From: a virus
Strand: one strand, 5' to 3'
DNA: 64,000 nucleotides
IMG/VR virus record: IMGVR_UViG_3300029922_000024
Coordinates: 1 to 64,000 of that record
Shown: positions 1,263 to 31,026 of the stretch, one piece after another
Position numbering within the stretch: the stretch's first letter is position 1
Layout: each line of letters begins with the position of its first letter
The notes under the pieces: generated by a model
What the model saw: the letters and a program-made list of their open reading frames with translations, nothing else
Told to the model about the DNA's origin: nothing
Database searches by the model: none
Position numbers and translations under genes: made by a program

Positions 1263-2297
1263 TTATTCTTCATCCTTGTAAGCTATATCGGCTAATGTGC
1301 TCCAATTAACTGTATTCAAATCTTCAAATGTATCTGTTATATTGCTTATAATTTTAAGTCCACCAATATAACCTTCGCCTTCAGATACAGGAGTTCCATC
1401 TGGTTTGGTAGTAGAGGTGCCACCTTGACCCAAGACAGCAGTTTCAAGTAATCTATGTGGTTGATTGTACCATCTATTTTCCACTTGACCGGTAATCTCT
1501 ATATCCCTAGACCATATTACTTGACCTGCGTCAGAATAATCTGGATTGGGATACATTTGACCACTTGAAATAAGACTTTCTGCGTAACCATCTTTTTCTA
1601 ACAGTGCTTGGCGGTATCTAAGTAAAGAATAGGTTGTAATTGCATGAAGCCAAAGCAAAGTCTGTTGATCCATAGCATTGCAGGTAATTTTGTAGTTTTC
1701 CTTCATGAAGGTATGACTAATTCTAGTTTCATAGAATTGAAATTCTGAAAGGACGCCATATTTTGCTGCTGTTAGACTCAATCCTTTAAATAAATTAATT
1801 GAATTATTCAAACCAATACTTTGAATCGAATAGCCAGTTCCTGTAGCAGGATCTACAAGAAGCATGCCAGGACTGATATTAGTAAAATCAATGGTAGAAG
1901 AGAAAGTAAATGCACCAGAAGTCGGATTATACGAGCCAGGAATCGGTTTGATTATATATGGGATTTGTTTATTGATATTATTTGGCATCAGTCTAACTTT
2001 TTCAACACTTAAGTCTCCCATGTGTTTCATGTCAGCTTTTTCATTGCTATTACCAATTTGAATTACTACACAAGGAAATTCCATTTTATCGTCCCTATTG
2101 GACATAAAAGTGTACACCCTATTATTGGCAAACCATTGCTTACATGATTCGATTTGGCTGCCGTAACGTTCACGCAGATATTGATTGGAAAGAGTGTCTC
2201 CTAATATATCGTCTAGAAGCCAAGGATTTTTTTGAATATCCTCAAGGCCTAGTTCGATTGCAGTGCGAATTCTTATATCGCCAAAAAATAAAGACAT
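1263..2297 (-). CDS. Virion structural protein, neck or tail-proximal, unknown family
   Basis: The 344-residue protein starts MSLFFGDIRIRTAIELGLED. An N-terminal helical part (1-60) is followed by mixed beta sequence, a Gly/Ser/Thr-rich insert around 115-165, and a C-terminal part with WNRDIEITGQ-like and EGYIGGLKIISN strands. It lies 2 nt downstream of the gp10-like completion protein and is probably translated with it. Position after portal-side head-completion genes suggests a connector or tail-terminator role. This rests on context, not on a recognised motif. Confidence 0.6.
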   Translation of the reverse strand: MSLFFGDIRIRTAIELGLEDIQKNPWLLDDILGDTLSNQYLRERYGSQIESCKQWFANNRVYTFMSNRDDKMEFPCVVIQIGNSNEKADMKHMGDLSVEKVRLMPNNINKQIPYIIKPIPGSYNPTSGAFTFSSTIDFTNISPGMLLVDPATGTGYSIQSIGLNNSINLFKGLSLTAAKYGVLSEFQFYETRISHTFMKENYKITCNAMDQQTLLWLHAITTYSLLRYRQALLEKDGYAESLISSGQMYPNPDYSDAGQVIWSRDIEITGQVENRWYNQPHRLLETAVLGQGGTSTTKPDGTPVSEGEGYIGGLKIISNITDTFEDLNTVNWSTLADIAYKDEE

Positions 2298-2299
2298 AA

Positions 2300-3100
2300 T
2301 TATCTACTTCCGTATTTAGACATCAAAGATGGTAAAATATCTTTTTCCCATCTATCTTCAGCCCATTTCTTCGCTTCTTCGAAGAACTTTTTACCTTCTA
2401 GCCCTGGATGAATCCATTTACCGTCTTGACCTTCTTTAACGGTTCTAAAGGTTGTTATGCTTCTTTTTACGCTACCATCATCTTTTTTGGTTTGATAAAT
2501 GGATAGCCCATGCAACACTGGAGTATTTCCTCTTCCTGGGATCCCACTCTCTATATCAAATGAATGTAATTTACCTATCCTTGGACTTCCTGTCTTCGGA
2601 TCTATTTCTAATTTTTTGTAAGGAATATCTCTTTTTCTTAATTCAGATTTTACTTTCTTTATAAGTTCTTGTTGATATTTTAGTTTATCATCATTACTAC
2701 TTAATTCAGATGCTACCTTTCCCTGATCAAAAGCTACGATTCTGTATTTTTTACCATCCTTGCCAGTTTTAATTTCCCCTTTACTCCCAGGTTTTTTGGT
2801 ATTCAAAAGACCCTTCTTCATATCGAAATTGTCAGGCAATCCTTTTTCAATCCACTCAGCATCTGCTTTTAAAGTAATCTCCCATAAATAGTCATCAATT
2901 TTTTCGGCTTGAGATAGATTTTCTAAATAAATTTTACGGCTGGACTTTAATTTATTTTGTGCTTCCTCTACAATATGGGTTTGGGTATCTACTGCAAGTC
3001 CCTTTACTGATTTCTTTAAATCAGACACTACTTCTTTCTTGAAGTTTTCAAGAAATTGGGTAAGTGCCGATATATCTAAGGTGACTTTAAAATCAGGCAT
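2300..3100 (-). CDS. HK97 gp10-like head-tail completion protein
   Basis: The 266-residue protein starts with a beta strand and helix (MPDFKVTLDISALTQFLENF). It ends with WIHPGLEGKKFFEEAKKWAE, the W-x-HPG and helix signature of gp10/neck-type proteins that sit between connector and tail. A Lys-rich insert at about 100-200 makes it longer than the usual 120-150 residues. The start follows AAAAGG with good spacing. Its ATG lies one base after a stop codon in the frame of the upstream extension at 3102-3306, which supports that extension being translated. Confidence 0.65.
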   Translation of the reverse strand: MPDFKVTLDISALTQFLENFKKEVVSDLKKSVKGLAVDTQTHIVEEAQNKLKSSRKIYLENLSQAEKIDDYLWEITLKADAEWIEKGLPDNFDMKKGLLNTKKPGSKGEIKTGKDGKKYRIVAFDQGKVASELSSNDDKLKYQQELIKKVKSELRKRDIPYKKLEIDPKTGSPRIGKLHSFDIESGIPGRGNTPVLHGLSIYQTKKDDGSVKRSITTFRTVKEGQDGKWIHPGLEGKKFFEEAKKWAEDRWEKDILPSLMSKYGSR

Positions 3101-3101
3101 A

Positions 3102-3306
3102 TTAACCTTTTATAGGTACTCCATTTGGACCTAAGACTCTACCCTCTTTCATATCGATGAAACGGACTCGACCGTTTTCGTCCGTAATCTTCTTCTGGCC
3201 CTTTCCATTGACGCCACCCTCAGGAATAGGATTTGCGGCAAGATGAGTAGTGGTATGTTTTGCAGATAGTTTGCTAGCAGGAATGGGTCCGGCTAGCCCT
3301 GATTTT
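3102..3306 (-). other. Probable -1 frame C-terminal extension of the mCpol-like protein
   Basis: Between the stop of the large gene (3293) and the next start (3100) there would be 192 nt without a gene, unusual here. In the -1 frame this stretch is open for about 66 codons and reads like protein (GLAGPIPASKL, ITDENGRVRFID, GRVLGPNGVPIKG), ending one base before the next ATG. It has no start codon near its beginning. It joins the large gene at CCC AAA AAA T (minus strand; the T run 3303-3308 on the plus strand), a slippery-type site. A seventh A, or -1 slippage, would make one protein of about 745 residues. Confidence 0.65.
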
Positions 3307-5332
3307 TTGGGTCTGGGGCGGCACCCTCCATAGGAGCCGCTTTTTGTTGCATAGGTGCTGGTTTTGGAGGAGACTGTTGTTGAGCAGGCGCAGTAGGTGC
3401 AGGCGCTGAATTAGGAGATGTAGGCGATGGTTCAAGGCCTAGTAATTTACAAAGTTCAATCATTGATTTTAACATTTGAATACAAGAAGTGTACAGGCCT
3501 TCATTTTGCTCTCTTGTGGCCTCCAACGATTGCTTATTGGCTTTAAATTGTTGAAGAGTTTGCGATACCATATTAACAACTTTTTCTCGTTGTATCTGAT
3601 CTTGATTGTCTTGTAATCCACCTTGCAGAACACCCATCATATCTGGTTGTTCATCACCACCTTGTGAATCGCCCATGACCTGTTCTTCTCCAGGCATAGG
3701 GCTATTAGGATCACTAACTGCTTGTGTATCTTGCTGAAAATCCTGATCTTGGTCTGAAATATTTTGTTTTTGTGCGTCTCCAAAATTCGACTTCACAGAA
3801 ACATTGTCTTTCATTGCATCGCCTTGCGGCATCTCAGTATTATCTATTTGTCCGGCTTCCTGAGTAGGATCTGCATTTCCTTGACCAGGTTCTTGATCTA
3901 GTAAATTAAGTACTTCTTCAGCCGTTTCGTGTCCTTGCAAATTAGGGTCTTGTTGGCCATTTTGTGCTGGATCGCTTTCAACTGCATCTCCATACATTTC
4001 TTGACACTGAGGGCAATTTTCTGGGTGTTCTGCTCCCATGTCTTGAGCTTCTACATTTGATTGGTCCTGATCATACTCAGCACACCAAGGACAGTCACAT
4101 GTGTCCTCGTGTTGTGGATTTGCTTGAGATCCAGTAATATTTTCTGTTTGACAATAAGGACAATCATCAATGTGACCGGTTTCTTGATTAGACTGGTTGT
4201 ATTCTTGACAAGCGGGGCAGTCATCGTGCATACCGGCAGTGCCGTCAGCATTTTCTTGTGCGTCAAGATCTTGACAAAAAGCGCAATCATCTGTACGGTC
4301 ATCTTCATTATCGTGATTGTGTTCTTCAGCATCTTCATCGTTTTTATGGATATCGCAAAGCTTGCTTTTGTGTAAGTTACAATATTTTTCGGATTTCTTA
4401 TGATCCAGCATGTGGTTGTCCAAATGACGAGCAGTGGCGCTTATGGCCGATGCCTTTTCATGTAGCCCTTTTGCGTGGTCTTCATGTCTTTTTTGATTTC
4501 CTTGTCTCCACGCCTGTCTTTTTTCTGGATTTGCATTTATTTCTTTGTCCCTAGCCCAATCATCAGAACTTTCATGTCCAGTTTCAATAGGGGTTGTAGC
4601 AGTAGAGTAGGCTCTATGCATATCATGCATTGCCTGGTGCCCTTCTTGATGGGGGGTACCCCTACCTTCATTCCATGCAATTTTTTCATGTTGTCGTGCT
4701 AATCTAGAATGAGTAGGAGAATCCAGCCCCATCATTCCTTCATGGGTAAGTTTGGGCTTGCTATCCCCTAATTTAGGCCCTCTAGGTTTTTTGGTAGCAG
4801 TTTTCTTGTCCACCAATTGAGCATCCGCTTTATGTAAATTACATAGTCCCATAAGTTCACTCTTTTCCAGATAGGCCTCAGCAAGTTTATATTCCTCTTG
4901 TGTTGCCCTTTTTTCTCTGACTCTTCTTTTGGCTTTTTTAATATCTTCTTTGATATATTTATTGAAATAAACAATTCTATTTTTGCCACGAAGTTTCGCA
5001 ACCAATAGGGCGGTGCCAGCCTCTGAAAGATTTTTCCCTACTCCAGCAGAAATAGTGTACCCAAATGATTTTTCGACACCGCTTCTTAATTCTTTTATTT
5101 TCTTTCTAGACTCTGGAGGAATAGCCATTGTAGCTTCATCTCCACCACCAGAAATTTTTGCTCCGTCATTTTGCTTGCACCAATGATCAATATATGCTTG
5201 GGCCGCATCAATACGGCCAGAAACTTTATGTAGTTCTTCAACATCGTTAGCAATTACGGCCCGACCTACTAGTTTTCCAATGCCATCACCATCGACAGCT
5301 ATGTATAGCATCCCTGGCTTAATCTTTTCCAT
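3293..5332 (-). CDS. Large virion-block protein with mCpol-like palm domain and Cys-x2-Cys repeats
   Basis: This is a 679-residue, multi-part protein. Residues about 8-122 look like a palm-type nucleotide polymerase/cyclase domain of the minimal CRISPR polymerase (mCpol) family: MLYIAVDGDGIG gives the first metal-binding aspartates (D14, D16), ISGGGDEA (60-67) gives the GGDD/GGDEF-like turn, and YTISAGVGKNLSEAG with GKNRIVYF completes the fold. A basic linker and a His-rich helical region follow. At about 345-460 there are five C-x2-C motifs (CAFC, CPAC, CPYC, CPWC, CPQC), most preceded by His. The rest is Gln/Asp-rich, then a helix and a Pro/Ala tail. The domain name is from family memory; nucleotide product and role are unknown. 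It overlaps the next upstream gene by 14 nt. The C-terminus may extend by frameshift. Confidence 0.75.
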   Translation of the reverse strand: MEKIKPGMLYIAVDGDGIGKLVGRAVIANDVEELHKVSGRIDAAQAYIDHWCKQNDGAKISGGGDEATMAIPPESRKKIKELRSGVEKSFGYTISAGVGKNLSEAGTALLVAKLRGKNRIVYFNKYIKEDIKKAKRRVREKRATQEEYKLAEAYLEKSELMGLCNLHKADAQLVDKKTATKKPRGPKLGDSKPKLTHEGMMGLDSPTHSRLARQHEKIAWNEGRGTPHQEGHQAMHDMHRAYSTATTPIETGHESSDDWARDKEINANPEKRQAWRQGNQKRHEDHAKGLHEKASAISATARHLDNHMLDHKKSEKYCNLHKSKLCDIHKNDEDAEEHNHDNEDDRTDDCAFCQDLDAQENADGTAGMHDDCPACQEYNQSNQETGHIDDCPYCQTENITGSQANPQHEDTCDCPWCAEYDQDQSNVEAQDMGAEHPENCPQCQEMYGDAVESDPAQNGQQDPNLQGHETAEEVLNLLDQEPGQGNADPTQEAGQIDNTEMPQGDAMKDNVSVKSNFGDAQKQNISDQDQDFQQDTQAVSDPNSPMPGEEQVMGDSQGGDEQPDMMGVLQGGLQDNQDQIQREKVVNMVSQTLQQFKANKQSLEATREQNEGLYTSCIQMLKSMIELCKLLGLEPSPTSPNSAPAPTAPAQQQSPPKPAPMQQKAAPMEGAAPDPKNQG

Positions 5333-6365
5333 TTGTTTTCCTCAAAGTGTCCAGGAGCATTTGAATATTTTCTTTATCCCAACCACGAGAAAATCTTATC
5401 TGAATACTTTCTTCTGATTTCTTAATCCAAATTTTGCTATACTGATCTTGGCCATAGCACAAACAACAAGAAAAAGACCCTTGGCCAAAAATGGTTTGTC
5501 CGCAATCAGGGCAGTTGATAGTTTCGGATTTAGCAATTTCAATTCTATGTTCTTTTGGTTTTTTCTTTCGTTCCAAAAATGCTTTTAATGGAGAACCTTT
5601 TTCGGGAGACTCTTCTTTTTTGGCCATATCTTCTGCCTTAAAATCCAATTTTTTTTTAGGTGCTTCTGCAAAATTGGGCTCTTTATTATTTGCAATTGAA
5701 TCGGCAACTTCCATGCCATTAGCCATTCCCTGGAAATACTCACCCGACTGCGCAGATTGATGGGCAATTTTTGTTACATCCGAAATCTGTTCATTTTTCT
5801 TATGTTCTTTGGCTAAAGCTTCATTGAGCCTATCCATCATAAGTTTATTAAGAGCGTCTCTTTCAGAAATTTTATTCTCAACTACGCGACTAACCAAAGA
5901 ATGAAGTTCCATTCTTGCATCGATCAATTTTTGTATTTTGGCTTCAGCATGTTCCGTTGGCTCAATAGTCTCTTTTTCTAATTTTTCTAATTCGTAAAGT
6001 TCGAATGTAGATAGTAGGATGATACCAAGTCCAGGAATTGATCTATTTTGAAAACTGTAAACTAATTTATTGTTGTCATAGACAGATCCCGTATAGTCAT
6101 CGGCAGCATTCTTGTTTGCACTAACACGAGCGTTTTTGCCAAATGGAAGTTGAAGTTCTATACTGGTATTGAGTGGCATCGGTGTCAAAGCGCTAATGAG
6201 CAATGACATGACAAATCTTGGAACCACCTTCAACCCAATACGAATCTCTTCAGGGTCCAATACAGAATTGGATCCGATCTTGTATAGATCTGCAGATTTA
6301 GCTAAAGATTGTAGAAAATCTTCATCTAAAATCTTATTAAGAGATAGGTTGTGTATTGTTTGCAT
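5319..6365 (-). CDS. Virion-block protein with C-terminal zinc ribbon
   Basis: The 348-residue protein has a mixed N-terminal domain (1-125), a charged helical centre (about 130-260) likely to form a coiled coil, and a C-terminal zinc-ribbon-like segment (CPDCGQTIFGQG, then CCLCYGQ) near 285-310. I do not recognise a named family. It overlaps the start of the mCpol-like gene by 14 nt and the end of the upstream 155-residue gene by 29 nt, so the three are translated together. A virion or assembly role is inferred from position only. Confidence 0.6.
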   Translation of the reverse strand: MQTIHNLSLNKILDEDFLQSLAKSADLYKIGSNSVLDPEEIRIGLKVVPRFVMSLLISALTPMPLNTSIELQLPFGKNARVSANKNAADDYTGSVYDNNKLVYSFQNRSIPGLGIILLSTFELYELEKLEKETIEPTEHAEAKIQKLIDARMELHSLVSRVVENKISERDALNKLMMDRLNEALAKEHKKNEQISDVTKIAHQSAQSGEYFQGMANGMEVADSIANNKEPNFAEAPKKKLDFKAEDMAKKEESPEKGSPLKAFLERKKKPKEHRIEIAKSETINCPDCGQTIFGQGSFSCCLCYGQDQYSKIWIKKSEESIQIRFSRGWDKENIQMLLDTLRKTNGKD

Positions 6366-8652: not shown

Positions 8653-9777
8653 TTACTTTTCCTTACTGTACGCATCTCTAATCTTTTTGACATAGGGATG
8701 ATTTGAAATAGAATTTGCATTGTTCTTCTTGGTACCAGTTATACCTTGATTCCAAGCAAAAGCCGTTTGATCGGGGTTATTTTTAAAATTGTGCTCTATG
8801 TGGGCTAGATGACGATCTGCTATTATTTCTTCAAGACCTTTGTTATCCTGCATAAATCTGTGCAATTGAGGACCCTTTAATGTCAGGGCCTTCCCATATT
8901 TTGCTTGAAGGTCCTTGTGTCCCTTAATAGTATCTGTAATGGTGTTAGGCATTAAAGCCCATTTACCATAAGCCTGACCTTGAGAAGTAGGAGCGTGGTT
9001 TGTATTTTTCCCACCACTTGATTCTACTTGCATGATAGCATTTAGCATTTTTTTGTGATCGTAATTATTTTGATGGGCTTGCATGTCGGGAGAATTTTTG
9101 ATATTCGAAGTATGATTAGTGCCTCCAGCTAGCGCTGCTGCCATGCCCAATCCTATACCGACATTTTTTAGTGCGCCTTTTTCTAGGACTTGTTCGGACT
9201 TATTGACGGATAATTTTGCGGTATAGTCGCTCTGATCAGGAAATTGGGGTTCAGCACTATCTGATTGATGATGGTAGGTTTTTAGCCTCTTAGGACCCTT
9301 TTTCAATTCTGCATTACCAAATTCAATTCCTGCTTCCTTTGCGGTTTTAGCGCCAGAGGATTTAATTTTGTCATGCATATCTTTAGGAACACTGATATGG
9401 GGTGCCCATTCACGTTGTTCAGGAAGTCCCATATGTGCAAATTTACCATGATGCTCTTTCATTTTCTCTGCAGAATTACCTTTTAATGTAATGACAAAAA
9501 CATCCGATCCATTACGATCTTTAAATTGGTTTGGTTCTATCTGAGTATTTTTTGCATCAGGAGGATTCAATGGAAGGTGTTTGGCCATGTTATGAATTTC
9601 GTGAGCGTGATCTTTATTTGCGTCGAATTCTTTGATGGTAGAATGGTATGGGATACCATTATCTGACCTACAATCTTGACCATTAATCTTTACTGGATAT
9701 AGTAAAATCAACCCTTTATTGGCTTGTTCAGCATATTGGGCAGGATTTTCAGATTTATTTATTAAATTACATTCCAT
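8653..9777 (-). CDS. 2H-phosphoesterase-like domain fused to a lytic transglycosylase-like domain
   Basis: Counting from the ATG at 9777, the 374-residue protein has two parts. Residues about 20-160 carry the paired H-x-[ST] motifs of the 2H phosphoesterase superfamily: YHSTIKEF (H45, T47) and WAPHISVP (H127, S129), 82 residues apart as expected for LigT/2'-5' ligase relatives. A basic linker and a short Gly/Ala-rich hydrophobic stretch (VGIGLGMAAALAGG) follow. Residues about 240-374 look like a soluble lytic transglycosylase: MLNAIMQVESSGG has the catalytic-type Glu and AYGKWALMPNT the substrate loop. The second part probably opens peptidoglycan at entry. The first could cleave cyclic or RNA phosphodiesters. 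An upstream ATG at 9813 is possible but overlaps the previous gene. Confidence 0.65.
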   Translation of the reverse strand: MECNLINKSENPAQYAEQANKGLILLYPVKINGQDCRSDNGIPYHSTIKEFDANKDHAHEIHNMAKHLPLNPPDAKNTQIEPNQFKDRNGSDVFVITLKGNSAEKMKEHHGKFAHMGLPEQREWAPHISVPKDMHDKIKSSGAKTAKEAGIEFGNAELKKGPKRLKTYHHQSDSAEPQFPDQSDYTAKLSVNKSEQVLEKGALKNVGIGLGMAAALAGGTNHTSNIKNSPDMQAHQNNYDHKKMLNAIMQVESSGGKNTNHAPTSQGQAYGKWALMPNTITDTIKGHKDLQAKYGKALTLKGPQLHRFMQDNKGLEEIIADRHLAHIEHNFKNNPDQTAFAWNQGITGTKKNNANSISNHPYVKKIRDAYSKEK

Positions 9778-9781
9778 AAAA

Positions 9782-10717
9782 TTAAATATTCGATACCAAG
9801 AATTTAGTTGCAAAAGTAGCTTTTACTTTACCAACCAATTCCATTTTTTTCTTTTCTAATTGTTCGATGTAAGGAAGGTACATTCTAGGGCCAGGTCCAG
9901 AAGATGATTGGCTGATACCATCCCTACTCAATGACTGACTTGTAGTCAGAAACAGATTAGTGATCACAGAGAGCATATTAATGGCAGCAATGGTTCCCAC
10001 TAAATCATTGATCACTGTAGGAAACTGACCTTCAATTTTTGAAACACCGGTCTGATAAACAATTTGCCAAAATCCAGGAACAAAAGTAAGTGAACTAAAA
10101 ACATTCAAATACGGAATACCACCGTAAGCACCAACTCCGCCGCCACTAGCAACAGAGTAGGCACCTAGAATTGGTACTACGTTAACAATACCTTTAGCAA
10201 AGTTACTAGGCTCAAGCCATTCAGGTGGAATTTTAAAAACCGCATACCCATCACTACTAACAATTTGAACGCTTTGTACAGCCAAGATAGGATTTTGTTC
10301 TGTTTTTAAATAAATGAAACTTTTGTAGAGAGCGATATCGAATGGGACCTTATCAGTAAACTGTTCTCTGCTTAAAGTAATCTTACAAAGCATTTCGACT
10401 TCATTAATAGCCAGACCAATTTGGTCTTTAACGTCTTCAGCACTGTAAGAATCACCATTTGGAAATGCCAAGGGAATCCCTTTGAGATAACGAGAAATCA
10501 ATAATTGTGGAGTAAGAATAGGCTCACATCTACTCAATAGACCAGACGATTTACTCATGTGGACTGGATATGCAGCAGAATAGAATTGCTTATCCTTATC
10601 GAAATTCGGAGGTTGAGGAGTGCCGTCTAATGGACCAGATGTAGGTTTAGGAACCGGCTCATAAGGAGCTTGTTGTTCTACATATGGTGGTCCTGGCTTA
10701 AATGGAGGATTACTCAT
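9782..10717 (-). CDS. Connector-like head completion protein
   Basis: I use the ATG at 10717 (MSNPPFKPGPPYVEQ) because CAGGGA lies 9 nt upstream; its ATG overlaps the upstream stop as TAATG. The 311-residue protein has a Pro-rich N-terminus. A helical segment resembling the gp6-type connector fold follows (EDVKDQIGLAINEVEMLCKI), then strands and a hydrophobic Gly-rich region (GAYSVASGGGVGAYGG), and it ends with basic helices. Location between other virion genes supports a head-tail joining role, but the match is weak. Confidence 0.5.
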   Translation of the reverse strand: MSNPPFKPGPPYVEQQAPYEPVPKPTSGPLDGTPQPPNFDKDKQFYSAAYPVHMSKSSGLLSRCEPILTPQLLISRYLKGIPLAFPNGDSYSAEDVKDQIGLAINEVEMLCKITLSREQFTDKVPFDIALYKSFIYLKTEQNPILAVQSVQIVSSDGYAVFKIPPEWLEPSNFAKGIVNVVPILGAYSVASGGGVGAYGGIPYLNVFSSLTFVPGFWQIVYQTGVSKIEGQFPTVINDLVGTIAAINMLSVITNLFLTTSQSLSRDGISQSSSGPGPRMYLPYIEQLEKKKMELVGKVKATFATKFLVSNI

Positions 10718-12559: not shown

Positions 12560-13963
12560 TTAGGTGAAAAGTTGTCCTTGAAGATTTTCAACGATAGCGT
12601 TCTTACGTGGAGCTTCTACTGCGAGAGTAGTCCAACGATAGAAAGCGTTATTGATTGACAATTGACTAATACCTAATTGGATTTTTTTGAATCCGCTTAG
12701 CTCACCTAAATGCATCGTGTCTTTTTGAATCAAGAAACCGGTTAAAGCACCTGGAGCCAAGTTACCAAGGTCGGTGAAAGTAGCACCGCTTGGAAGAGCA
12801 AGAATATTACCGATAAAGAGTGGTCCTGGAGCAACGTTTGCAGCCACACCAGCAGCAGTACGATAAACGCGGTAGTAAAGAGCACCGGCAACTGCACCGA
12901 TAGCAACTGATACTTTATTTCCAGCGAGAGCAGGAGTAACAGTTGTTACAGCAGAAGTTGGGCCTTCGCCGAAAGCGTTAACTGCAGCAGCTTGGTAGCT
13001 ATAAGCAGCAGCTTGGAGGAGTGATCCAGCAGCGCCACCGTCAGTAGCAGTTGCTGTTGGAGCAGCAGGAGCGCCTACGATAGATTGGTTGATAGGGCTA
13101 ATTTGCTTACGCAAGTACTGAGACATTTCCATGGTGATTGCACCGCTAGAAGTCCATTGAGTACGTAAGTGAGAACCAGTAGCTTCTTGTGGGCTACCAG
13201 CAAGAACGATACGTTCTTTAGCTTGGCTAATTTTGTTGTAAGCAGAGAGAGAAGAAGGATCAAGCATAAGTTTGTCAGCGCGACCCATGTTAAGGGCAGA
13301 ACGAACTGAAATATCTTCAATCAATGATTGGGTGAGGGCTGCGCCACCTGCAGAGAACACTACAGTTGCACTTGAACCGTATGATGCGAACATGAGATCT
13401 TGTCCATTGCGCTCATAGTCAGAAGCACGAACTTGAAGATCAACACCGCGCATATTTGGCAATGCAGGTACTAACGCTGGGTTACCATCGAAAACACCTT
13501 GGTTAGAGAAATCTGAGTTACCTGCGAAAAGGTCGAACTCGATATCTTGAGCCAAGTTAAGAGCTGCGTCTTGTGCTTGGCGCTCTTCAGCAGAAACTTT
13601 ATCGAAAGTTTCAACTGCGTTAGCTACCAGTGAATGCTCACGAGTATCAACGTAGTAAGCCATTGGAATTACGAGACGAGCTGCTTGACCAGTCTTTTTG
13701 GCTCCGAGCATACCTTCGTATGCAGCAGATCCACCGAAACGACCTACAGACAACTTGCGGTTGTACTGATAAAGGTTGCTTTTTGCAGGACGACTGTCCA
13801 ACATTTTTTGCAATTTGATGGTTTCTTCAGCAGCAGTCACGTTTACCATAACTGGCGCTAAATCTTCGATTTGGTAAGCTGCACCTTGTACTAAAGTACT
13901 AGGGGCTGCATTATAACTGCCTGCTTCCAATGCTTTCATGAGGCCCTGAAGTTGTTCTAACAT
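12560..13963 (-). CDS. Major capsid protein, HK97 fold with an Ig-like insertion
   Basis: The 467-residue protein forms the capsid shell. The N-terminus carries EAGSYNAAPSTLVQGAAYQ, a segment also found in the prohead protease at 16193. Then follow capsid-type strands and helices (AYYVDTREHSLVANAVETFD, AQDIEFDLFAGN, NMGRADKLMLDPSSLSAYN). Residues about 294-391 form a fibronectin/Ig-like insertion (PAAPTATATDGG, YSYQAAAVNAFGEGPTS, YYRVYRT), common in surface-exposed phage domains. The C-terminus (IQLGISQLSINNAFYRW) returns to the core. Codons are more uniform than in neighbouring genes, as expected for high expression. A strong ribosome binding site (AAGGAG) precedes it. Scaffold and decoration-like genes lie upstream and a strong terminator downstream. 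Confidence 0.85.
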   Translation of the reverse strand: MLEQLQGLMKALEAGSYNAAPSTLVQGAAYQIEDLAPVMVNVTAAEETIKLQKMLDSRPAKSNLYQYNRKLSVGRFGGSAAYEGMLGAKKTGQAARLVIPMAYYVDTREHSLVANAVETFDKVSAEERQAQDAALNLAQDIEFDLFAGNSDFSNQGVFDGNPALVPALPNMRGVDLQVRASDYERNGQDLMFASYGSSATVVFSAGGAALTQSLIEDISVRSALNMGRADKLMLDPSSLSAYNKISQAKERIVLAGSPQEATGSHLRTQWTSSGAITMEMSQYLRKQISPINQSIVGAPAAPTATATDGGAAGSLLQAAAYSYQAAAVNAFGEGPTSAVTTVTPALAGNKVSVAIGAVAGALYYRVYRTAAGVAANVAPGPLFIGNILALPSGATFTDLGNLAPGALTGFLIQKDTMHLGELSGFKKIQLGISQLSINNAFYRWTTLAVEAPRKNAIVENLQGQLFT

Positions 13964-13998: not shown

Positions 13999-14997
13999 TT
14001 ACTTAAGCAGATGGCTAACCTTTTCAATGTTTTTTGTAAAGTAGTAGCTGTTAATGGCATCTCTATCTGACTTAGAAAGAGACTGATCTTTCGCTTTAGC
14101 TAGAAGCTTGGAATCAATTTCACTCTTAGAAAGTGGCTTTTCCTTCGTCATGCTTTCGGTTTTAGCGATAACATCCAACGAAGTGATTGCTTTTCCTGCA
14201 GGAGCCGCTTTCTTTACAAATTCTTTTAAGAAAGTTTCTACTGCGTCTAAGTTCTTTTTAGTGGCTTCCGCTTCAGCTTTAGCAGCCTGAAGTTCTGATT
14301 TTAAAATCTGAACTTCTTTAACTGAAGTGGTGTCAACTTCTAGAAATTTTTCAGATTTCTCTAAAGCTTGAGTTCCGCTTGCAGGAGCCGTTTTTTTGCT
14401 AGTTGCTTCACCATCATGAGGACCACCATTAGGGCGATATTCGCCTTCTTTGCTGTCTTCCATTTCGGCTTTTGCCATTTCATTTTCGCTCATCGACATA
14501 GCCATTCCGTCCATACATTTACGGATACAATCGTGGTGAGCCTTTAATTCAGATCTAGGCATTGAGCTATACATAGAATGCATATGCGCCATGTCTTCAT
14601 CGTCGTAACCATGATCTTCACCTTGAGCAGGATTCGCACCAGCTTGTTGTTGATGTTGATCTTTAATGCCTTTATCTGCGTGGCTTTCGCCTTCCATCGG
14701 TTTTCCAGATTTATCCGCAGAAGCTTCTTTTTTGGCATCATTGCCTTCTTGCTTTTGATCTGCAGAAGCATTGCGGTTATCGTCTGATTTTCCGCCTTCT
14801 TTATTTTCACTAGCGCTAGTTTTTTCGTCTTTAGCGCTATTTTTCTTGTCATCGGCCATGCCGTTGATTTTCTTGTCTTTAGGCTGCTCGTCTTCGTTTT
14901 TGGATAAACCCAAAGACTGTTCAGCTTTAGCTAAATGAGATGTAAATTCTTTCGTTACATCCTCAATTAGGCTGCTAAGTTCTTTTTCAGTATACAT
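13999..14997 (-). CDS. Scaffold-like capsid assembly protein
   Basis: The 332-residue protein is very charged and of low complexity between about 35 and 130 (Lys, Asp, Ala, Ser, Gln). A helical His/Met-rich region follows (YDDEDMAHMHSMYSSM), then a coiled coil (VQILKSELQAAKAEAEATKK) and a basic helical C-terminus. This composition, and the position directly before the major capsid gene, fit an internal scaffold that is removed by the prohead protease. An AGGAG ribosome binding site precedes the start. Confidence 0.65.
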   Translation of the reverse strand: MYTEKELSSLIEDVTKEFTSHLAKAEQSLGLSKNEDEQPKDKKINGMADDKKNSAKDEKTSASENKEGGKSDDNRNASADQKQEGNDAKKEASADKSGKPMEGESHADKGIKDQHQQQAGANPAQGEDHGYDDEDMAHMHSMYSSMPRSELKAHHDCIRKCMDGMAMSMSENEMAKAEMEDSKEGEYRPNGGPHDGEATSKKTAPASGTQALEKSEKFLEVDTTSVKEVQILKSELQAAKAEAEATKKNLDAVETFLKEFVKKAAPAGKAITSLDVIAKTESMTKEKPLSKSEIDSKLLAKAKDQSLSKSDRDAINSYYFTKNIEKVSHLLK

Positions 14998-16192: not shown

Positions 16193-17830
16193 ATGTCAAC
16201 TTTTCTCCATGGTGTCGGAACTGTTCAATTTATAGATAAATCGGGAGAACTCCTTGATCTTAAAGGATTAAGTATAGATTCTCTCGAAAAGACTGGCGTT
16301 ATCAACTATGAACACAAGAGCGATGTGCCAGCCCAATTAGTTGGCAAGATATTGAAAGCAAAGAAGATTTTCTCAAAAAAAGACTGCGCAAACGAACACG
16401 AACTCTATTTTTGGAAGAAAACCAAAACCCCATATTTATACATCATGGCCGAGTTGTTAGATGACTATTGCGATAGCGCAAAACACGTTGCAGGTATGTT
16501 GAGATACGACAGAGACAGAAAAGACCAAAACGAATACAATATTGTGTGGTTTAGTATTGAAGGCAGTGAAATCCCAAATACTAGAGTGGGCAAGTCCATT
16601 ATTACAAGAGGTATTGCACGTAAGGTTACTTTGACTTCTGCACCATGTAATGCGGCAGCTGCAGTTGAAATTCTTGAAAACCAAGCACCAAAAATTAAAG
16701 ACGACTTTGATGAAATATTTAAAAGCGAACAAGAAGCTATCACTTTATTCAAAACGGGTGAAGGTGAAAAGTTGTACGAAACCTATTTAGCAAAAAAAGA
16801 AGCCGAAGGCCCAAGCACTGGCGGTAAGCCCCCAAAGAATCCCTACAATGAATATCAAAATAGCGGCACTAGAATTGGTAAAACAAAATCCGGTAAGACT
16901 GTTTGGTCTCACGGACACATTGGCGATTACAGTTTTAATCCTGCCGAACACCAAGAAGCTGCCGAACATCATGAACGGGCTTCTGTAATTTCTGAGAATC
17001 CAAAACTTGCTGATAACCACGCGCAACGTGCAGTTGCTCACGCTAATGCTGCTAAATCCGGTGGTCGTCAAGAAAATCGTGCAGCACTTTCTCTTAACCA
17101 AAAAGATAAGGTGGCTCAGGAGCAAGGAAAACAAGTGTCTAAAGCCGAATATTGTGAAAAACACAAAAAATTACAAAAAGCTGATGGACCAAAATGGTCG
17201 GGACCAAAAGTAACTGGTGACGCCATACATTTTTCTCATCCAGAACACAATATCGTTAGTGTCCATAAACAGCCTTCTGGAGAATTTCACGTAAAACACA
17301 ATGGTAGAGTTGCTGGCGTGGGTGGACAAAAAGGCGTATTCAATAATGCAAAAGATGCAGGGGCACACGCACAAAAATTCATGAGTGGGTTAAGTAGTGG
17401 TAAGATAACCGCTCCAGCGATGCAAAACCATCCATCACCTTCAATTATTGGCAATACATCTATCAAAAAAGCAATTACTGCTGGTAGTACGAATGCAGCA
17501 CCTTCAACTTTGGTAAATGGAGCTGCCTACCAAACAGAAAGTCTTGCTAAAGAACAATCTCCTTCAGAAGAACATAATTTTAAAGGCTCAAAAAAGAAAG
17601 ACTGGAATTTAAGAGCCAAGCAAGATTACGAAAAATGGCCTCATAGGGAAAAGTTTGAGAAGTTCATGAAGTCAAAAATGCCTCACCTTTCTAAGGGTGA
17701 AATAGCAGCTTTTGGCAGAGTAATTGCACTCAAGAAGAATATCGAATTTGAAAATTCTTTAAGCGATCTAGTTGACTTTAATAAATCTGAAGATGCTAAA
17801 AAAGTAATTGTATCAAATACAAAAAAGTAG
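16193..17830 (+). CDS. Prohead (head maturation) protease with long C-terminal scaffold-like region
   Basis: The 545-residue protein begins with a phage prohead protease domain (about 1-165). GVINYEHKSDVPAQLVGKI holds the likely catalytic His (H41), VWFSIEGSEI near 120 a candidate Ser, and GIARKVTLTSAPCN the conserved core strand. A domain with GKTKSGKTVWSHGHIGDY and many His (about 225-300) follows, as in other phage assembly proteins. Near 429 is AGSTNAAPSTLVNGAAYQ, nearly the same as the N-terminus of the major capsid protein. The C-terminus is helical and basic. I infer that protease and part of the scaffold are joined in one chain that is built into the prohead. It lies on the plus strand, away from the capsid operon. 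Confidence 0.75.
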   Translation: MSTFLHGVGTVQFIDKSGELLDLKGLSIDSLEKTGVINYEHKSDVPAQLVGKILKAKKIFSKKDCANEHELYFWKKTKTPYLYIMAELLDDYCDSAKHVAGMLRYDRDRKDQNEYNIVWFSIEGSEIPNTRVGKSIITRGIARKVTLTSAPCNAAAAVEILENQAPKIKDDFDEIFKSEQEAITLFKTGEGEKLYETYLAKKEAEGPSTGGKPPKNPYNEYQNSGTRIGKTKSGKTVWSHGHIGDYSFNPAEHQEAAEHHERASVISENPKLADNHAQRAVAHANAAKSGGRQENRAALSLNQKDKVAQEQGKQVSKAEYCEKHKKLQKADGPKWSGPKVTGDAIHFSHPEHNIVSVHKQPSGEFHVKHNGRVAGVGGQKGVFNNAKDAGAHAQKFMSGLSSGKITAPAMQNHPSPSIIGNTSIKKAITAGSTNAAPSTLVNGAAYQTESLAKEQSPSEEHNFKGSKKKDWNLRAKQDYEKWPHREKFEKFMKSKMPHLSKGEIAAFGRVIALKKNIEFENSLSDLVDFNKSEDAKKVIVSNTKK

Positions 17831-17836
17831 TATACT
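17808..17836 (+). promoter_or_regulatory. Promoter for the tRNA gene
   Basis: TTGTAT (17808-17813), a 17-nt spacer and TATACT (17831-17836). Transcription would begin at about 17843, almost exactly at the 5' end of the tRNA, so little or no 5' trimming would be needed. Confidence 0.6.
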
Positions 17837-17841
17837 AATAT

Positions 17842-17918
17842 CGCAGGCATAAAGAAATAGTGTCTTGTCTGGCTCATAACCAGGATATCGTCCGTTGCGA
17901 GTACGGAGCCTGCAACCA
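17842..17918 (+). tRNA. tRNA-fMet-like (anticodon CAT), divergent
   Basis: The 77-nt sequence folds as a cloverleaf. The acceptor stem GCAGGC/GCCTGC has a C1-A72 mismatch and ends AACCA, with CCA encoded. The anticodon stem TCTGG/CCAGG carries the loop CTCATAA, and the T stem TCCGT/ACGGA the loop TGCGAGT. The D stem is AAGA/TCTT with a short loop. The C1-A72 mismatch and loop are hallmarks of bacterial initiator tRNA; only two of the three G-C pairs of the initiator anticodon stem are present. The elbow is odd: the D loop lacks GG and the T loop has G in place of the second T. It ends 2 nt before the next ATG. Elongator Met or Ile(CAT) is less likely because of C1-A72. Confidence 0.7.
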
Positions 17919-24705: not shown

Positions 24706-26520
24706 TTAGTCTTCGTCCTCTTCTAACATATCAGAAATTAACCATTTTAACAAATCTAAAGAGTGTGGTTTTGGAGCATACATAGCAGCCACCGAATTTG
24801 GTGCTATTTGAGCCATTAATTGCAATGACTGCAACGAAAATGGATCTCGTTTGAATCTCATAAGTGGATCCACATACGCTGCAGGACTGCCCATAAAGCG
24901 TCCTTTTATTTGACCAACATCTAAGTATTTATCCCAAACGAGTTGAATTCTTTCGTTAAATGGTACTTCTCCAGCCATTCCTACACCGATAGTTGGTTTA
25001 TCGACATAGTTCAGCACCTCATCATAGGTCATGTGAGTGGGCTGATCTTGTTGTAAGCGAGTAGATTCTTGTTCCTTAGATTCAGCATCTAATCCAGCAA
25101 TTTTGAATACTACGATTTTTGCTAGAATAGGGTCAATGATCGGAATCAACCTTTGATTAAAAAATGTCTCAAGATGCTGGATAATTGGAACAAATCCAGA
25201 GTCGCGAGCAGCTTCTAATTTGAATTCGTTATTTGATTCGCTTAAAGTCTGACTATTAGAACCCTTACTTAAATGGCCATATCCTGGAAGTTCATCAGGA
25301 GACATTTGGAAGGTCGCGAGAATGTTCCTTGCAATTTGGTCGTAAATGAATTCAAATGAATCATCTGCTTTATCGTTTGCAAATGAAAGCCAATCAATGC
25401 TCTCGGTTGGAGATATACCCATTAAAGGAGTACGGAATGAGTTTTGTACACCATTAATACTTGCTTGAAACTCTTGTCTGAATTTCTCTAATGTAGGAGA
25501 ATCAACGTCATCCGATTTAATGACCAATGCTCCACGAGTAGCTCTACCATTTTGGAAATAAAGTCTTTTCCAGGTATCAATACTAATATGGGTAGTAATT
25601 GAAGAAATTGCAGTTTCAATTGGTGGTACAGGATATCCGTTCTTTTCAACATCTGTACATGGATAGAAGTCGTGCATCAACAATTCTTCATGAGTGAAAT
25701 ACTGTTTTGCAATACCTTCTACTTGTTGACACCACGCATACTTATCTTCTCTAAGTTTATCGTAATCAATTCCGATTTTATCGCCAGTAATTCTTTCAAG
25801 TTCTTTAATGGCAAGAATTCTGGTATTAACTCCAGCCTGCTCACCATTTCTTACTGTCTTAAAGATGGTGCCGGAATCGATTGGTCTAAAACGATTAAAT
25901 GGGAATCTACCTTCTGCATCTGGTTCTGATTCTCTATCATAGATGACCTCTGTACCCATCCAACCAAAAGTAAGAGCGTTCTCCACAGAAAGGGCCAAAT
26001 ACTGACTTAAAGTCATTTTTTGTTGGTTTTCAAGACCTTCTGTATGACCGCAATTTAAGAGAATTGTTTCAAGTCTTTTAATTCGTTCTGTAACTTTTTC
26101 AAACTGTTCCGTATTTAAAAGTTTATAGAATTCAGGTTTGATTTTAATCTCAATACCTTTATCGAAACGATCGGCACGCTTCTTACCAAATTGGCTAATT
26201 TGACCTGCGCGAGTCCTTAAGATAGCAGCAACTAAGTGATCTTGAACCCTTACGAGTTTCAAAAGAGCATCTGGAATTTCATTTCTCTTAGCTTTAACTA
26301 CACCGGCATAAGCATCGTTGTAATTTGGGCTTTCCATGAAGGTAAGCGCAGGAGCTCGTTCTGTGGCTTTTCCTATCGAATCATTTAATGCTTTTTGTAA
26401 TGGACGTAAGGTGGTACTGTCAGCTTTTAACTGAGCAAGGGGATCCATGTTGATTTCAGCCGAAAGCGTCAGCGACATGTCTTTTTTTATTGCAGACTTT
26501 TCGTTATTTTCATCGCTCAT
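24706..26520 (-). CDS. Portal protein
   Basis: The 604-residue protein forms the dodecameric DNA gate at the capsid vertex. The family pattern is visible: an N-terminal charged arm, the wing region (ALTFGWMGTEVIYDRESE, about 185-205), the stem with YFQNGRATRGALVI, then IARNILATFQMSPDELPG and LEAARDSGFVPIIQHLETFF in the crown. Length is normal. It follows the Ig-like protein by 3 nt and comes shortly after the terminase, the standard order. Confidence 0.8.
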   Translation of the reverse strand: MSDENNEKSAIKKDMSLTLSAEINMDPLAQLKADSTTLRPLQKALNDSIGKATERAPALTFMESPNYNDAYAGVVKAKRNEIPDALLKLVRVQDHLVAAILRTRAGQISQFGKKRADRFDKGIEIKIKPEFYKLLNTEQFEKVTERIKRLETILLNCGHTEGLENQQKMTLSQYLALSVENALTFGWMGTEVIYDRESEPDAEGRFPFNRFRPIDSGTIFKTVRNGEQAGVNTRILAIKELERITGDKIGIDYDKLREDKYAWCQQVEGIAKQYFTHEELLMHDFYPCTDVEKNGYPVPPIETAISSITTHISIDTWKRLYFQNGRATRGALVIKSDDVDSPTLEKFRQEFQASINGVQNSFRTPLMGISPTESIDWLSFANDKADDSFEFIYDQIARNILATFQMSPDELPGYGHLSKGSNSQTLSESNNEFKLEAARDSGFVPIIQHLETFFNQRLIPIIDPILAKIVVFKIAGLDAESKEQESTRLQQDQPTHMTYDEVLNYVDKPTIGVGMAGEVPFNERIQLVWDKYLDVGQIKGRFMGSPAAYVDPLMRFKRDPFSLQSLQLMAQIAPNSVAAMYAPKPHSLDLLKWLISDMLEEDED

Positions 26521-27361: not shown

Positions 27362-29230
27362 TTACTCAAAGCTCCAATGGAAGCCCCCACGCTTGCCCGT
27401 ACCACCCTTCACTGTGGCCTTACCGAGAGCCCTATCTAGTTCTCTTTGCATCATTTCATGTTGTTCAGGGGTATGTTTTTGTGCTTCTGGGATATTGGGT
27501 GCAGAAGGATCCATAGCCGTAATATTGGGTCTTTGAGGCCCACTTAAAGGAAACATGTTCTGTGCCAAATATCTTAGGGAATCGCATATATCTGCAATAC
27601 CAGCATCATCATCTGGAGTAGAAGTAACTTGTCCTTGACCATCCAGTAAGAATCTATGTTTCATGATGGCGGTTCTGACTTTTTTAGTACCTTCTGTTTC
27701 TAATACTTTTAAAAGTCTTATACCGGTAGCAGTCATTATTTTACTTCTAACACTTCCGATACCACCCATTACATCCTTGGTAAATTTTGGACACGGCATT
27801 CCATTCCTAACAAATGCTTTAATATAGGCCGGAGCAGACGTATCACAATACCATTTTCTTACATTGTATCTATCTTTAAAGTTTAATGCCACTGGAACCA
27901 AATCTTGTATTTCAAGTTTTGGACTAGCGAAACAATCTATGACCCATACTTCACCATTTGGGGCAGTGACCATAGCCAAAATAACCGCATCATGGGTATG
28001 TCCCCAATCCACACCACAAGAAACGGGCAGATCTAACTGTCTTATAATAGCGTAAATATTTTCTACGGTAATATTGGAAGGGGCCTTAGTACCAATTAAA
28101 GTTTCATACGCTTTCTTTATAGAAATCACGTTTCCTACATCAATTTTATCAGAGTATCTTGGGTAAACCAATCCTTCAGAACCCGGCTTCCAACACATTA
28201 ATTCTGCAGAGGCTACATCAGAATCATTCTCCGCAAATTTCTGTATAACGCTCGTGATTGGTTTATAAAATCCACCAGTAGCAGTTTGTGGTTTCTCAGA
28301 AAGCCTAGTTCTACATACGGGAAGTAATTTACAGCCTACGCAGCCAGCATGAACATTTGGTAGCAAATCATACTTAACTTTCTCGATATCTGGAAGGCCA
28401 TTAAATTCTTCTCCAGAAATTTGTATCAAGGGCAGTCCCTTCGCAACAAACATGTCTTTTTTTGGCAATTCTGGTTTATGTCTTGAAGTTGGGCATGCCT
28501 CTGTAACATCAAGGATATTCCAATTTAAAACTTTATAATTGGTTTCTGGCGCTGCATCTAAAGCATCTTGCATGTTACCAAAACTATATTTTCTAGTACT
28601 AAGATAGACCTTTATGCCATGAAATCCACGACTATATCCTGTTATATTTACCGCTTGCTTAATTGCCTTTTTATCGGCCAAGTCTAACTCATCTAGAAAT
28701 AAAAAATTGGCATGCAAACTGTTCATACCCTTAGCGGTACAAATAACGATTTTAATGAAAGGGGTTTCTCCATTGGGAGTCCTGTATTGAATAGTACGCT
28801 TGTTTTGCGTCATATTCTCCCAGCCGCTGATTTCTAATAGGGCCGAGATCTTCATTACGAAATCGTTAATGTAACCAATTGCTACTGCCGATTGCGTTTC
28901 TGTAGCTGCACCATGAGCAACAGTTCTGGAAAAGTGCAACATCAATAAAAGTTCTAGAATAGCAACCGAAACGGTTTTCATTCCTTCTCGGCAAGACATT
29001 AGAATGAACCCAGGATTTATATCTCCAGAATTATTTTTTGCTGTATGGTATACCTGCCATATAGCATCTAGGGGTGAAGTGTTAGAATCGGGATCGGTTA
29101 TTTCGAGAGGTAGTTCGAGATCGAGGAACATCCTAGCCCAATCCTTAACATCATCTGCACAGGTAAGAGGCGAGAACATGAGTTCCGCCATTTCCTTTTT
29201 TTGATCTTCATTTAGAGATTTAAAATTCAT
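27362..29230 (-). CDS. terL: Terminase large subunit
   Basis: The 622-residue protein packages DNA with an N-terminal ATPase and C-terminal nuclease. A divergent Walker A is MSCREGMKT (about 78-86) and Walker B is FLFLDELDL (about 172). The RNase H-like nuclease has SCGVDWGHTHDAV (first Asp), WYCDTSAP (second) and DICDSLRYLA (third). Between the domains near 295-310 is a Cys cluster (GCVGCKLLPVCRTR) that may bind zinc or an iron-sulfur cluster. It ends with a basic, Gly-rich tail. It follows GroEL by 8 nt. Confidence 0.85.
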   Translation of the reverse strand: MNFKSLNEDQKKEMAELMFSPLTCADDVKDWARMFLDLELPLEITDPDSNTSPLDAIWQVYHTAKNNSGDINPGFILMSCREGMKTVSVAILELLLMLHFSRTVAHGAATETQSAVAIGYINDFVMKISALLEISGWENMTQNKRTIQYRTPNGETPFIKIVICTAKGMNSLHANFLFLDELDLADKKAIKQAVNITGYSRGFHGIKVYLSTRKYSFGNMQDALDAAPETNYKVLNWNILDVTEACPTSRHKPELPKKDMFVAKGLPLIQISGEEFNGLPDIEKVKYDLLPNVHAGCVGCKLLPVCRTRLSEKPQTATGGFYKPITSVIQKFAENDSDVASAELMCWKPGSEGLVYPRYSDKIDVGNVISIKKAYETLIGTKAPSNITVENIYAIIRQLDLPVSCGVDWGHTHDAVILAMVTAPNGEVWVIDCFASPKLEIQDLVPVALNFKDRYNVRKWYCDTSAPAYIKAFVRNGMPCPKFTKDVMGGIGSVRSKIMTATGIRLLKVLETEGTKKVRTAIMKHRFLLDGQGQVTSTPDDDAGIADICDSLRYLAQNMFPLSGPQRPNITAMDPSAPNIPEAQKHTPEQHEMMQRELDRALGKATVKGGTGKRGGFHWSFE

Positions 29231-29238
29231 TTTTATTA

Positions 29239-31026
29239 TTACAGCCCACGAGCCCTATTTAGGGCGGGATTCTGATAAGCATCTGGATTCTGACTTACCT
29301 TACGCCACTCCTCGTCTAGACTCGCTTCTTTGCGCTCGAAATCACCATCCCTTGGGTGAACAACAATTCCTCCTAGAGTTCCAAGCACGCCTGCAATTTC
29401 AACTGAATTTCTTAAAGCTTCGCTTACAGCCTTACAAGCATCAAAAAGTCCCAACTCTTCGGGTTTTCCGAATACTTGGTTTTCGATATCATAAACGTCT
29501 TCTGGGTTATTAACTAGGTGTGCAAGTACTTCAGAGGCTTGCTCTTCGTTATATCCAGCATTTTCCAATAATCGATTTACAACACTGACCAAAGAAGGCA
29601 TAAGAATTTCTCGTGCAGGATCCCCTTCTGCCAATTCTTCTGAAATTTTTAGTGCCATATTAAGAATTACCCGTCCTCCTCCTGGAAGGATTCCATTGGT
29701 AAGACTGCTTCTAATAGAACACACCGCATCTTCAGCCCGATCACATCGTTCCTTAATATCGCCTGGAGAAGAGCCTACAACTGTAAGTTTTGCAATCCCA
29801 GACGTAATTTTTCCAATACGCTCTTCTAACCAAGAAGATTCTGCTTTTGATTCTGCTCTCTTAAGTTGTTTTTCGAGTTCTTCGGCACGATATTCAATAT
29901 TGAATTCATCTGGTGTGCCATCTAAGGTACTTCTAAAGCGAGTAGACTCAAAACTTTCCATTCCACTTCCTAAATCTTCAAGCGTAGCCTCATGAATCTG
30001 ATTTTTAAGACCAAACACTTTTGCTCCAGTAAAAGCTGCCAAATCGACCAACCAATGACTTTGGGCGTTCATGAATTGTGCCATAGGAGCCTTAATTGGG
30101 AGTACCCGTAGAGTTCCTTTTTGTTCGAAGTTAAAAGAAAGAGTTGAGATTACAGATTCTGAAAATCCATTAGCAACCAATACGATGCTTTTCAAGTCTT
30201 TTCCTGCCGCAGGATCTTCTTGGATTCTAGCCTCAATCGCATTAAAAAGAGGGCTCAACGATAATAGGTCTTGTATAGCGCCATCAAAAATTATAAATTT
30301 TGGGTTTTCCAAATAACAGCGTTGATTTCCCTGATCGTTGATAAAACTAGTAAAGTATTTACCATTACTTTCCTCAAGACCAATTGGAATTGGGTATCCC
30401 TTAATTCGTTCAACCTTATAACCACTTGGACCAGGAAGTTCTCGGATTGTAACGTGACTATTTTCGCCAAATCCAACTTCTTCAAAACATTTAAGTACAG
30501 CCTCCGCAAGAACCTTTTCTCCATTAACACTGACCGTAGCCACCTTTAATAATAATTCTTTGGATTCCTGAGTTACTGGAATGCTCTGTTCTTTAATGTA
30601 GGGTAGCAGTATTTCTTCCATAACTTTTTTAATACGTCTTACGGTTTTCTGTGGACTTTCTTTGGGATTTCTTTCACAAAAACCAAAGATGTTTTTGATT
30701 AGTTCATTCGCTAAAACTGCGGTTGTAGTCGTACCATCCCCAGCTTCATTTGCGGTTCTAAGTGAACAAGATCTAGCGACCTCAATAATACTATGCTTAA
30801 ATGAATTTTGATGAGCCATCGATTGGAATACAGAAATTCCGTCTTTGCTAATACGATCCGAAATGTCCTGGTGGTCCGACTCCAAAAGGCAAAGTTTGCC
30901 TCCGGGTCCTAAAGTGGCACCAACTAACAGACTGATATCGTTCATAGTTTCCAATACGATTGATTTAATTTTTTCTTTGTCTGCCAGATAAAGTTTAGGT
31001 GCCGTTTTTGCCTTACGATAAGCCAT
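29239..31026 (-). CDS. groEL: GroEL-like chaperonin
   Basis: The 595-residue protein belongs to the Hsp60 family that folds proteins in an ATP-driven ring. LLVGATLGPGGK and DGISVFQSM match the equatorial nucleotide site, NEAGDGTTTTAVLA (about 95) is the ATP-binding loop with catalytic Asp, and NGILPGGG is the C-terminal equatorial motif. The C-terminal Gly-Met repeat of bacterial GroEL is missing. It is about 45 residues longer, mainly around the apical and intermediate region. A GroES-like partner lies at 34193 on the other strand. Phage GroEL often folds capsid proteins. Confidence 0.85.
   Translation of the reverse strand: MAYRKAKTAPKLYLADKEKIKSIVLETMNDISLLVGATLGPGGKLCLLESDHQDISDRISKDGISVFQSMAHQNSFKHSIIEVARSCSLRTANEAGDGTTTTAVLANELIKNIFGFCERNPKESPQKTVRRIKKVMEEILLPYIKEQSIPVTQESKELLLKVATVSVNGEKVLAEAVLKCFEEVGFGENSHVTIRELPGPSGYKVERIKGYPIPIGLEESNGKYFTSFINDQGNQRCYLENPKFIIFDGAIQDLLSLSPLFNAIEARIQEDPAAGKDLKSIVLVANGFSESVISTLSFNFEQKGTLRVLPIKAPMAQFMNAQSHWLVDLAAFTGAKVFGLKNQIHEATLEDLGSGMESFESTRFRSTLDGTPDEFNIEYRAEELEKQLKRAESKAESSWLEERIGKITSGIAKLTVVGSSPGDIKERCDRAEDAVCSIRSSLTNGILPGGGRVILNMALKISEELAEGDPAREILMPSLVSVVNRLLENAGYNEEQASEVLAHLVNNPEDVYDIENQVFGKPEELGLFDACKAVSEALRNSVEIAGVLGTLGGIVVHPRDGDFERKEASLDEEWRKVSQNPDAYQNPALNRARGL

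Follow-up and report, generated by a model that had tools for sequence, protein, structure and literature searches.

Panoptes is a bacterial defence system whose mCpol protein is OptS (PF18182; PDB 9mnr, 9pd0 and 9nwn). According to the primary accounts (PMC12657218, PMC12657230), Panoptes makes a cyclic nucleotide constitutively and kills the cell once phage Acb proteins deplete it, and OptS is a bacterial protein that stands alone, is about 125 amino acids (aa) long and is encoded in an operon with OptE. The same accounts describe D6 and D57 of OptS as essential residues that bind the catalytic metals (PMC12657218) and S30 and N34 as the base-selectivity residues (PMC12657230); the parts consulted present mCpol in the context of bacterial defence, with no mention of phage structural genes. 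We have found an mCpol domain in a different setting. Whereas OptS stands alone, the domain described here heads a protein of 679 aa, or 743 aa with a predicted frameshifted tail, whose gene lies between the capsid and tail-sheath genes of a tailed phage. The DNA analysed, hereafter the window, comprises bases 1-64000 of a linear virus record of 114,496 bases (IMG/VR record IMGVR_UViG_3300029922_000024).

Other described systems resemble parts of this arrangement. GGDEF diguanylate cyclases (PF00990) have a related palm cyclase fold with the GGDE turn and occur in the head block of relatives of this phage, whereas the window domain is closer to OptS in both sequence and structure. Polyvalent proteins of phages and conjugative elements (PMC5512222) are similar in that unrelated enzyme domains occur in long proteins encoded with virion genes. 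Domains of this type in our phage group are mCpol, GNAT and ParB-like domains in relatives of the window protein, and ART-PolyVal in the corresponding block of Myxococcus phage Mx1. The window protein itself has one recognised domain plus CxxC repeats, its orthologues combine mCpol with GNAT (and ParB), and mCpol has 0 occurrences in the polyvalent-protein paper (PMC5512222). Immunoglobulin (Ig)-like extensions of phage capsid and tail proteins (PMC5009743) show the same mix of -1 frameshifting, +1 frameshifting and in-frame fusion as the tail of the mCpol protein. Unlike those extensions, this tail is short, has no recognised Ig relation and follows a protein with a cyclase-type domain.

That the window domain is a true member of the mCpol family is virtually certain. 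The sequence-only reading of this DNA had proposed such a domain at 4960-5332 on the basis of three motifs, and these were found in the claimed order in the 679-aa open reading frame (ORF): VDGDGIG at residues 13-19, SGGGDEA at residues 61-67 and SAGVGKNLSEAG at residues 95-106. Residues 10-122 matched positions 1-113 of the 114-position PF18182 profile with an E-value of 4.8e-18 and 66 bits (cut-off 26.4), and the NCBIfam mCpol model NF033576 scored 59.9 bits (cut-off 40). The domain as mapped (residues 9-123; Table 1) falls inside the proposed interval. Solved OptS chains in the PDB were matched at E=3e-9 in a single-sequence search. An AlphaFold2 model of the domain, built with 44 natural sequences, had a mean predicted local distance difference test score (pLDDT) of 94.2 and a predicted template modelling score of 0.87. 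It has a palm fold, as had been anticipated, and its best PDB match in Foldseek was Panoptes OptS, with a template modelling (TM) score of 0.88 and a root mean square deviation (rmsd) of 1.6 A. All of the top six PDB matches were OptS/mCpol (TM 0.85-0.88 by target length, rmsd 1.6-1.7 A, 31-32% identity); the matches that followed were mostly GGDEF cyclases, with Dpo4 at an E-value of about 2e-4. PF00990 gave no match in the window protein up to E=1, and a viral structure library held one uncharacterised phage protein with the same fold. A chance match of motifs was ruled out by the profile, the fold and the orthologues.

The metal-site residues, which the sequence-only reading had judged intact, were confirmed by alignment to KpOptS: D14 and D65 both lie at the active-site positions of D6 and D57. 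The specificity serine is also shared (S38), whereas a full GGDE turn and an aspartate (D42) at the N34 position distinguish the phage domain from OptS. Position 42 varies widely among phage members (D, N, K, T, H, G, Q or E); it is too variable to predict the nucleotide product from S38 and D42, and no product is claimed. Both metal aspartates are kept in 39 of 50 phage domains used for a tree, including domains with as little as about 31% identity. Of the 30 long phage records that were scored, 22 keep both and eight do not. The ratio of nonsynonymous to synonymous substitution rates was 0.03-0.15 in measurable pairs, a rough range with synonymous sites near saturation in most, and these comparisons indicate that the domain is under purifying selection. 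Judged by its residues and its modelled fold, the window mCpol is likely to be catalytically competent.

Loci for comparison, numbered here with the letter L, were taken from IMG/VR scans with the mCpol domain, the downstream neighbour and the capsid protein. A profile built on these loci matched 107 ORFs with 67 distinct domain sequences; some of the 107 matches, in long proteins upstream of the capsid gene, were GGDEF and not mCpol. An mCpol match was present in 34 of 36 long records (124-182 kb) of the phage group. Two genomes (the record of L043/L105 and the record of L117) are without mCpol and keep the remainder of the protein that occupies this slot in the gene order. The domain is thus conserved in the slot protein yet separable from it, and its absence from these genomes is more in keeping with an accessory effector than with a component of assembly. 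In relatives, slot proteins with mCpol and GNAT domains occur, one of 1,392 aa has mCpol, GNAT and ParB-like domains, and in L097 mCpol follows a region that by eye looks like an SLT lysozyme.

In a tree of the 50 phage domains, with KpOptS and a Sulfitobacter sequence as the only two bacterial outgroups, phage and bacterial mCpols were split with a Shimodaira-Hasegawa-like approximate likelihood ratio of 99, which with two bacterial rows says little on origin. Eleven phage domains, Mx1 included, were degenerate, having lost D14 and/or D65, and the fewest state changes that account for this pattern are three. Nine of the 11, Mx1 among them, fell in one tree group, mostly on long branches. On the conjugative Sulfitobacter plasmid pSpoCB-3 (L183), an mCpol gene and a small partner are found beside a CBASS operon and form a likely Panoptes locus.

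The mCpol gene almost certainly sits in a virion gene block. The source virus is a tailed phage, and the sequence-only reading was right to place the gene among head genes: terminase, portal, protease-like, scaffold-like and major head protein genes are encoded in the window (Table 1), and the gene order is kept as far as Mx1. Homologues of the window ORFs, from the capsid gene through 1263-2297, occur in the same order in L004-L008, L017 and Mx1. The corresponding block of Mx1, in which WNM70340.1 is the protein of the mCpol slot, is flanked by annotated major capsid and tail sheath genes. Mx1 (169.6 kb) was the sole relative among 50,697 phage records searched with the mCpol domain, the capsid protein and the downstream neighbour. 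Misreading of a bacterial defence locus as phage was ruled out, since the gene holds its slot in the capsid-to-sheath block. We consider it moderately likely that the mCpol protein is physically in the virion.

The C-terminus of many slot proteins is a short motif, GQQKVIDPKTGKTRWIDRKQGMVQSPTGVPIK or a variant of it, that is probably of beta structure. In the window, this tail is absent from the 679-aa frame and present directly after it in the -1 frame, a feature that the sequence-only reading had missed. The overlap of the two frames (3340-3100) contains CCCAAAAAAT, the putative frameshift site. The -1 arrangement was found in 17 distinct loci (the window, L001, together with L002, L004, L017, L025, L029, L032, L036, L052, L055-L057, L063, L064, L066, L067 and L148) and a +1 arrangement in two (L023 and L098); in others the tail is fused in frame. 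An in-frame heptamer of the form X XXY YYZ, mostly CCCAAAG or CCCAAAA, lies 10-37 nucleotides before the zero-frame stop in 16 of the 17 -1 loci (not L025). Among 315 control ORFs from these loci, only 25 have such a heptamer (Fisher p=2e-15, with independence overstated because the loci are related). C_CCA_AAG is reported to be highly shift-prone in E. coli (PMC5009743). The -1 frame of the window has no ATG, GTG or TTG ahead of the conserved tail, the first one lying inside it, and in most other -1 loci the usual start codons are likewise missing upstream of the conserved linker. The tail is therefore unlikely to be an independent small gene. Hairpins lie 3' of the heptamer in several loci but not in all; the predicted RNA structure there had z below -3 in four of 14 loci against simple shuffles and was weak in the others, and it is taken as supportive only. 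In the window gene, the heptamer is in frame within the overlap and is followed by a frame that is open, conserved and without its own start; features of this kind make it very probable that -1 frameshifting is used.

We tentatively propose a counter-defence role, in which an active synthase would interfere with host nucleotide signalling; given the sequence and model evidence, we put this at slightly below an even chance. A multi-domain protein of the head-to-tail block, in a tailed phage family of roughly 170 kb, carries at its N-terminus a probably competent mCpol related to OptS. The CxxC repeats, acidic linker, helical segment and beta tail probably tie the protein to the particle; in this phage frameshifting presumably adds the tail to only a fraction of the molecules, and other phages have it fused in frame. 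Some copies would enter the cell with the DNA or be made during infection, and mCpol would form dimers like those of OptS and convert nucleoside triphosphates into a cyclic dinucleotide. The product could then interfere with host nucleotide-based defence, most simply by keeping closed those effectors, of the OptE/2TM-beta type, that a cyclic nucleotide restrains, while phage phosphodiesterases, such as a 2H enzyme of the same block, would degrade alarm nucleotides. The virus may thus bring its own signal maker into the attacked cell. Because Panoptes punishes nucleotide depletion, a phage that makes such a nucleotide could escape the trap, which is the simplest role on known biology. A more specific scheme is unlikely to hold in full: in-particle mCpol would refill the Panoptes-restraining nucleotide or flood receptors with a decoy, 2H would remove alarm nucleotides, and the -1 frameshift would set the dose of particle-bound enzyme.

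The 2H enzyme is encoded about 3.3 kb upstream of the mCpol gene, as the N-terminal domain of an SLT protein. It has two HxT/S-type motifs, and both catalytic histidines are invariant in 31 orthologues. The fold of its model (pLDDT 91) matched the Burkholderia phage BCSR5 phosphodiesterase, Usb1, phage Acb1, YjcG and a viral RNase L antagonist, with a best E-value of 7.7e-4. The invariant motifs together with these fold matches identify the domain as a 2H phosphoesterase. The match to Acb1 (E 3e-3) was not above those to other 2H families, and no Acb1-family profile match was obtained for the 8653-9813 protein. The corresponding long protein of Mx1 and of L151 holds a NUDIX domain. In Mx1 there is a protein of 1,479 aa with NUDIX, ART-PolyVal and GNAT domains between the capsid and sheath genes (L009:5436-9875), and the gene next to it encodes a kinase-like domain.

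Several observations weigh against interference with host signalling. At least three lineages, including Mx1, have lost the metal site and kept the domain, from which it follows that some non-catalytic use is real in this Mx1-like minority. The window mCpol does not have the gene layout of Panoptes: it is not a separate small gene, and a family scan of the tested neighbours gave no OptE-like partner and no 2TM-beta, 2TM-CARF/SAVED or HEPN effector. Fold matches of the 2H domain are weak, with a best E of 8e-4, and are divided among several families of 2H enzymes, so that an anti-CBASS role is a candidate only. N34 of OptS, which contacts adenine, is an aspartate in the window domain, and the product may differ.

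Of the alternatives, structural or ligand-binding re-use survives best. The palm fold would here serve a virion protein as a folded head domain that dimerises, with its nucleotide chemistry incidental or lost. Such re-use would explain why Mx1 and ten other rows of the tree retain the domain and, where the gene end is visible, the tail after losing one or both aspartates, and why the domain is near universal in the phage group. It is harder to reconcile with a metal site that is intact in most members, very divergent ones included, and with the two genomes that do without the domain. Degenerate members also tend to lie on long branches, as expected after loss of constraint. We consider re-use rather unlikely, and signalling interference is favoured for the intact majority of mCpols.

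It is also conceivable, and in our view quite improbable, that the nucleotide acts on ordinary host physiology as a c-di-NMP switch of motility, surface or lysis state. GGDEF enzymes make cyclic di-GMP, a physiological messenger. A GGDEF match was found in 13 of 38 records, these being twelve long relatives and Mx1 (12 above the Pfam cut-off and one below), with the motif intact in those read. The domain lies at the end of a protease-like protein upstream of the capsid gene in L151:3613-7578 and L157:4281-8075, and also in the head block, at L171:6176-7453 and at 17173-17904 of the Mx1 record, where it is annotated as a nucleotide cyclase. The window record gave no PF00990 match. However, GGDEF presence has no clear link to mCpol loss (seven intact and five degenerate mCpols with GGDEF, 15 and three without), and the numbers are too few to claim that GGDEF replaces mCpol. 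Moreover, the action of mCpol has so far been shown in defence (PMC12657218, PMC12657230).

A phage weapon against competitors, or a phage-borne toxin-antitoxin or exclusion system that serves the phage as Panoptes serves bacteria, would draw on the known use of the family; it is very improbable given that no such effector was recognised in the neighbours scanned and that the gene lies in a structural block instead of an accessory locus. A template-independent or primer-making polymerase acting at genome ejection is barely credible, since the palm fold that it shares with polymerases such as Dpo4 is by far nearest to OptS and then to GGDEF cyclases, and no nucleic-acid-binding extension was recognised except the unassigned CxxC repeats.

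Table 1. Positions of the mCpol gene, its parts and neighbouring genes in the window
Feature	Position	Strand	Basis or remark
Zero-frame ORF, 679 aa	3293..5332	-	mCpol, basic helical linker, insert, CxxC repeats, acidic/Gln-rich low-complexity region, conserved helical segment
mCpol palm/cyclase domain	4967..5305	-	PF18182, NF033576, OptS in PDB, AlphaFold2, Foldseek
Codon D14	5291..5293	-	metal ligand D6 of KpOptS; alignment to OptS, role from PMC12657218
Codons S38..D42	5207..5221	-	OptS base-selectivity S30..N34; Ser kept, Asn to Asp
Codon D65 (GG-D-E turn)	5138..5140	-	metal ligand D57 of KpOptS; alignment to OptS, role from PMC12657218
Five CxxC motifs (CAFC, CPAC, CPYC, CPWC, CPQC)	4004..4285	-	zinc-knuckle-like repeats common to relatives
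Conserved helical segment, residues 581-635	3428..3592	-	by eye in orthologues read, including Mx1
Slippery sequence C CCA AAA AAT	3302..3311	-	just before zero-frame stop; putative -1 ribosomal frameshift
C-terminal beta tail in -1 frame (GKGQKKITDENGRVRFIDMKEGRVLGPNGVPIKG)	3102..3310	-	predicted frameshift product 743 aa, ends at 3102
Two downstream neighbours of mCpol gene	2300-3100, 1263-2297	-	order as in Mx1, ~32% identity
Upstream neighbour of mCpol gene	5319..6365	-	order conserved
2H phosphoesterase and SLT transglycosylase protein	8653..9813	-	PF01464, 3.3e-5
2H phosphoesterase domain, N-terminus of SLT protein	9253..9783	-	motifs, orthologues, fold
Major capsid (head) protein	12560..13963	-	phrog_752, 2e-37
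Probable scaffold	13999..14997	-	acidic ORF directly upstream of capsid gene (position, composition); conserved beside major capsid gene
Head-maturation-protease-like ORF	16193-17830	+	opposite strand to other head genes
Portal	24706-26520		
Terminase large subunit	27362-29230		

Other features of the window and of related loci were recorded. The protease-like ORF has a His-rich helical stretch that, by eye only, is similar to helices in the mCpol protein's insert, a resemblance that might point to a common module for capsid targeting. It also has a stretch of 30 aa with 77% identity to the L017 capsid protein. A chaperonin of the Cpn60/TCP-1 family (E 2e-32) is encoded at 29239-31026 on the minus strand. 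L017 and L182, two different mCpol phage contigs, were binned in one Deltaproteobacteria metagenome-assembled genome (bog_1112), a weak hint of the host.

These results place a known domain in a new setting: earlier descriptions treat mCpol as an enzyme of bacterial defence, and here it is encoded among the structural genes of a large phage family. Bench work can start from the recoding site, which is conserved, and from the 2H phosphoesterase encoded nearby, and the named Myxococcus phage Mx1, which belongs to this group and has lost the metal site, is a natural catalytically dead comparison. It is known that phages can destroy immune nucleotides or sequester them with sponges; if interference by an active synthase is true, this phage makes one, and the roles would be reversed. 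An intact and nearly universal mCpol in the phage group would predict counter-defence against guard systems that, like Panoptes, punish nucleotide depletion.
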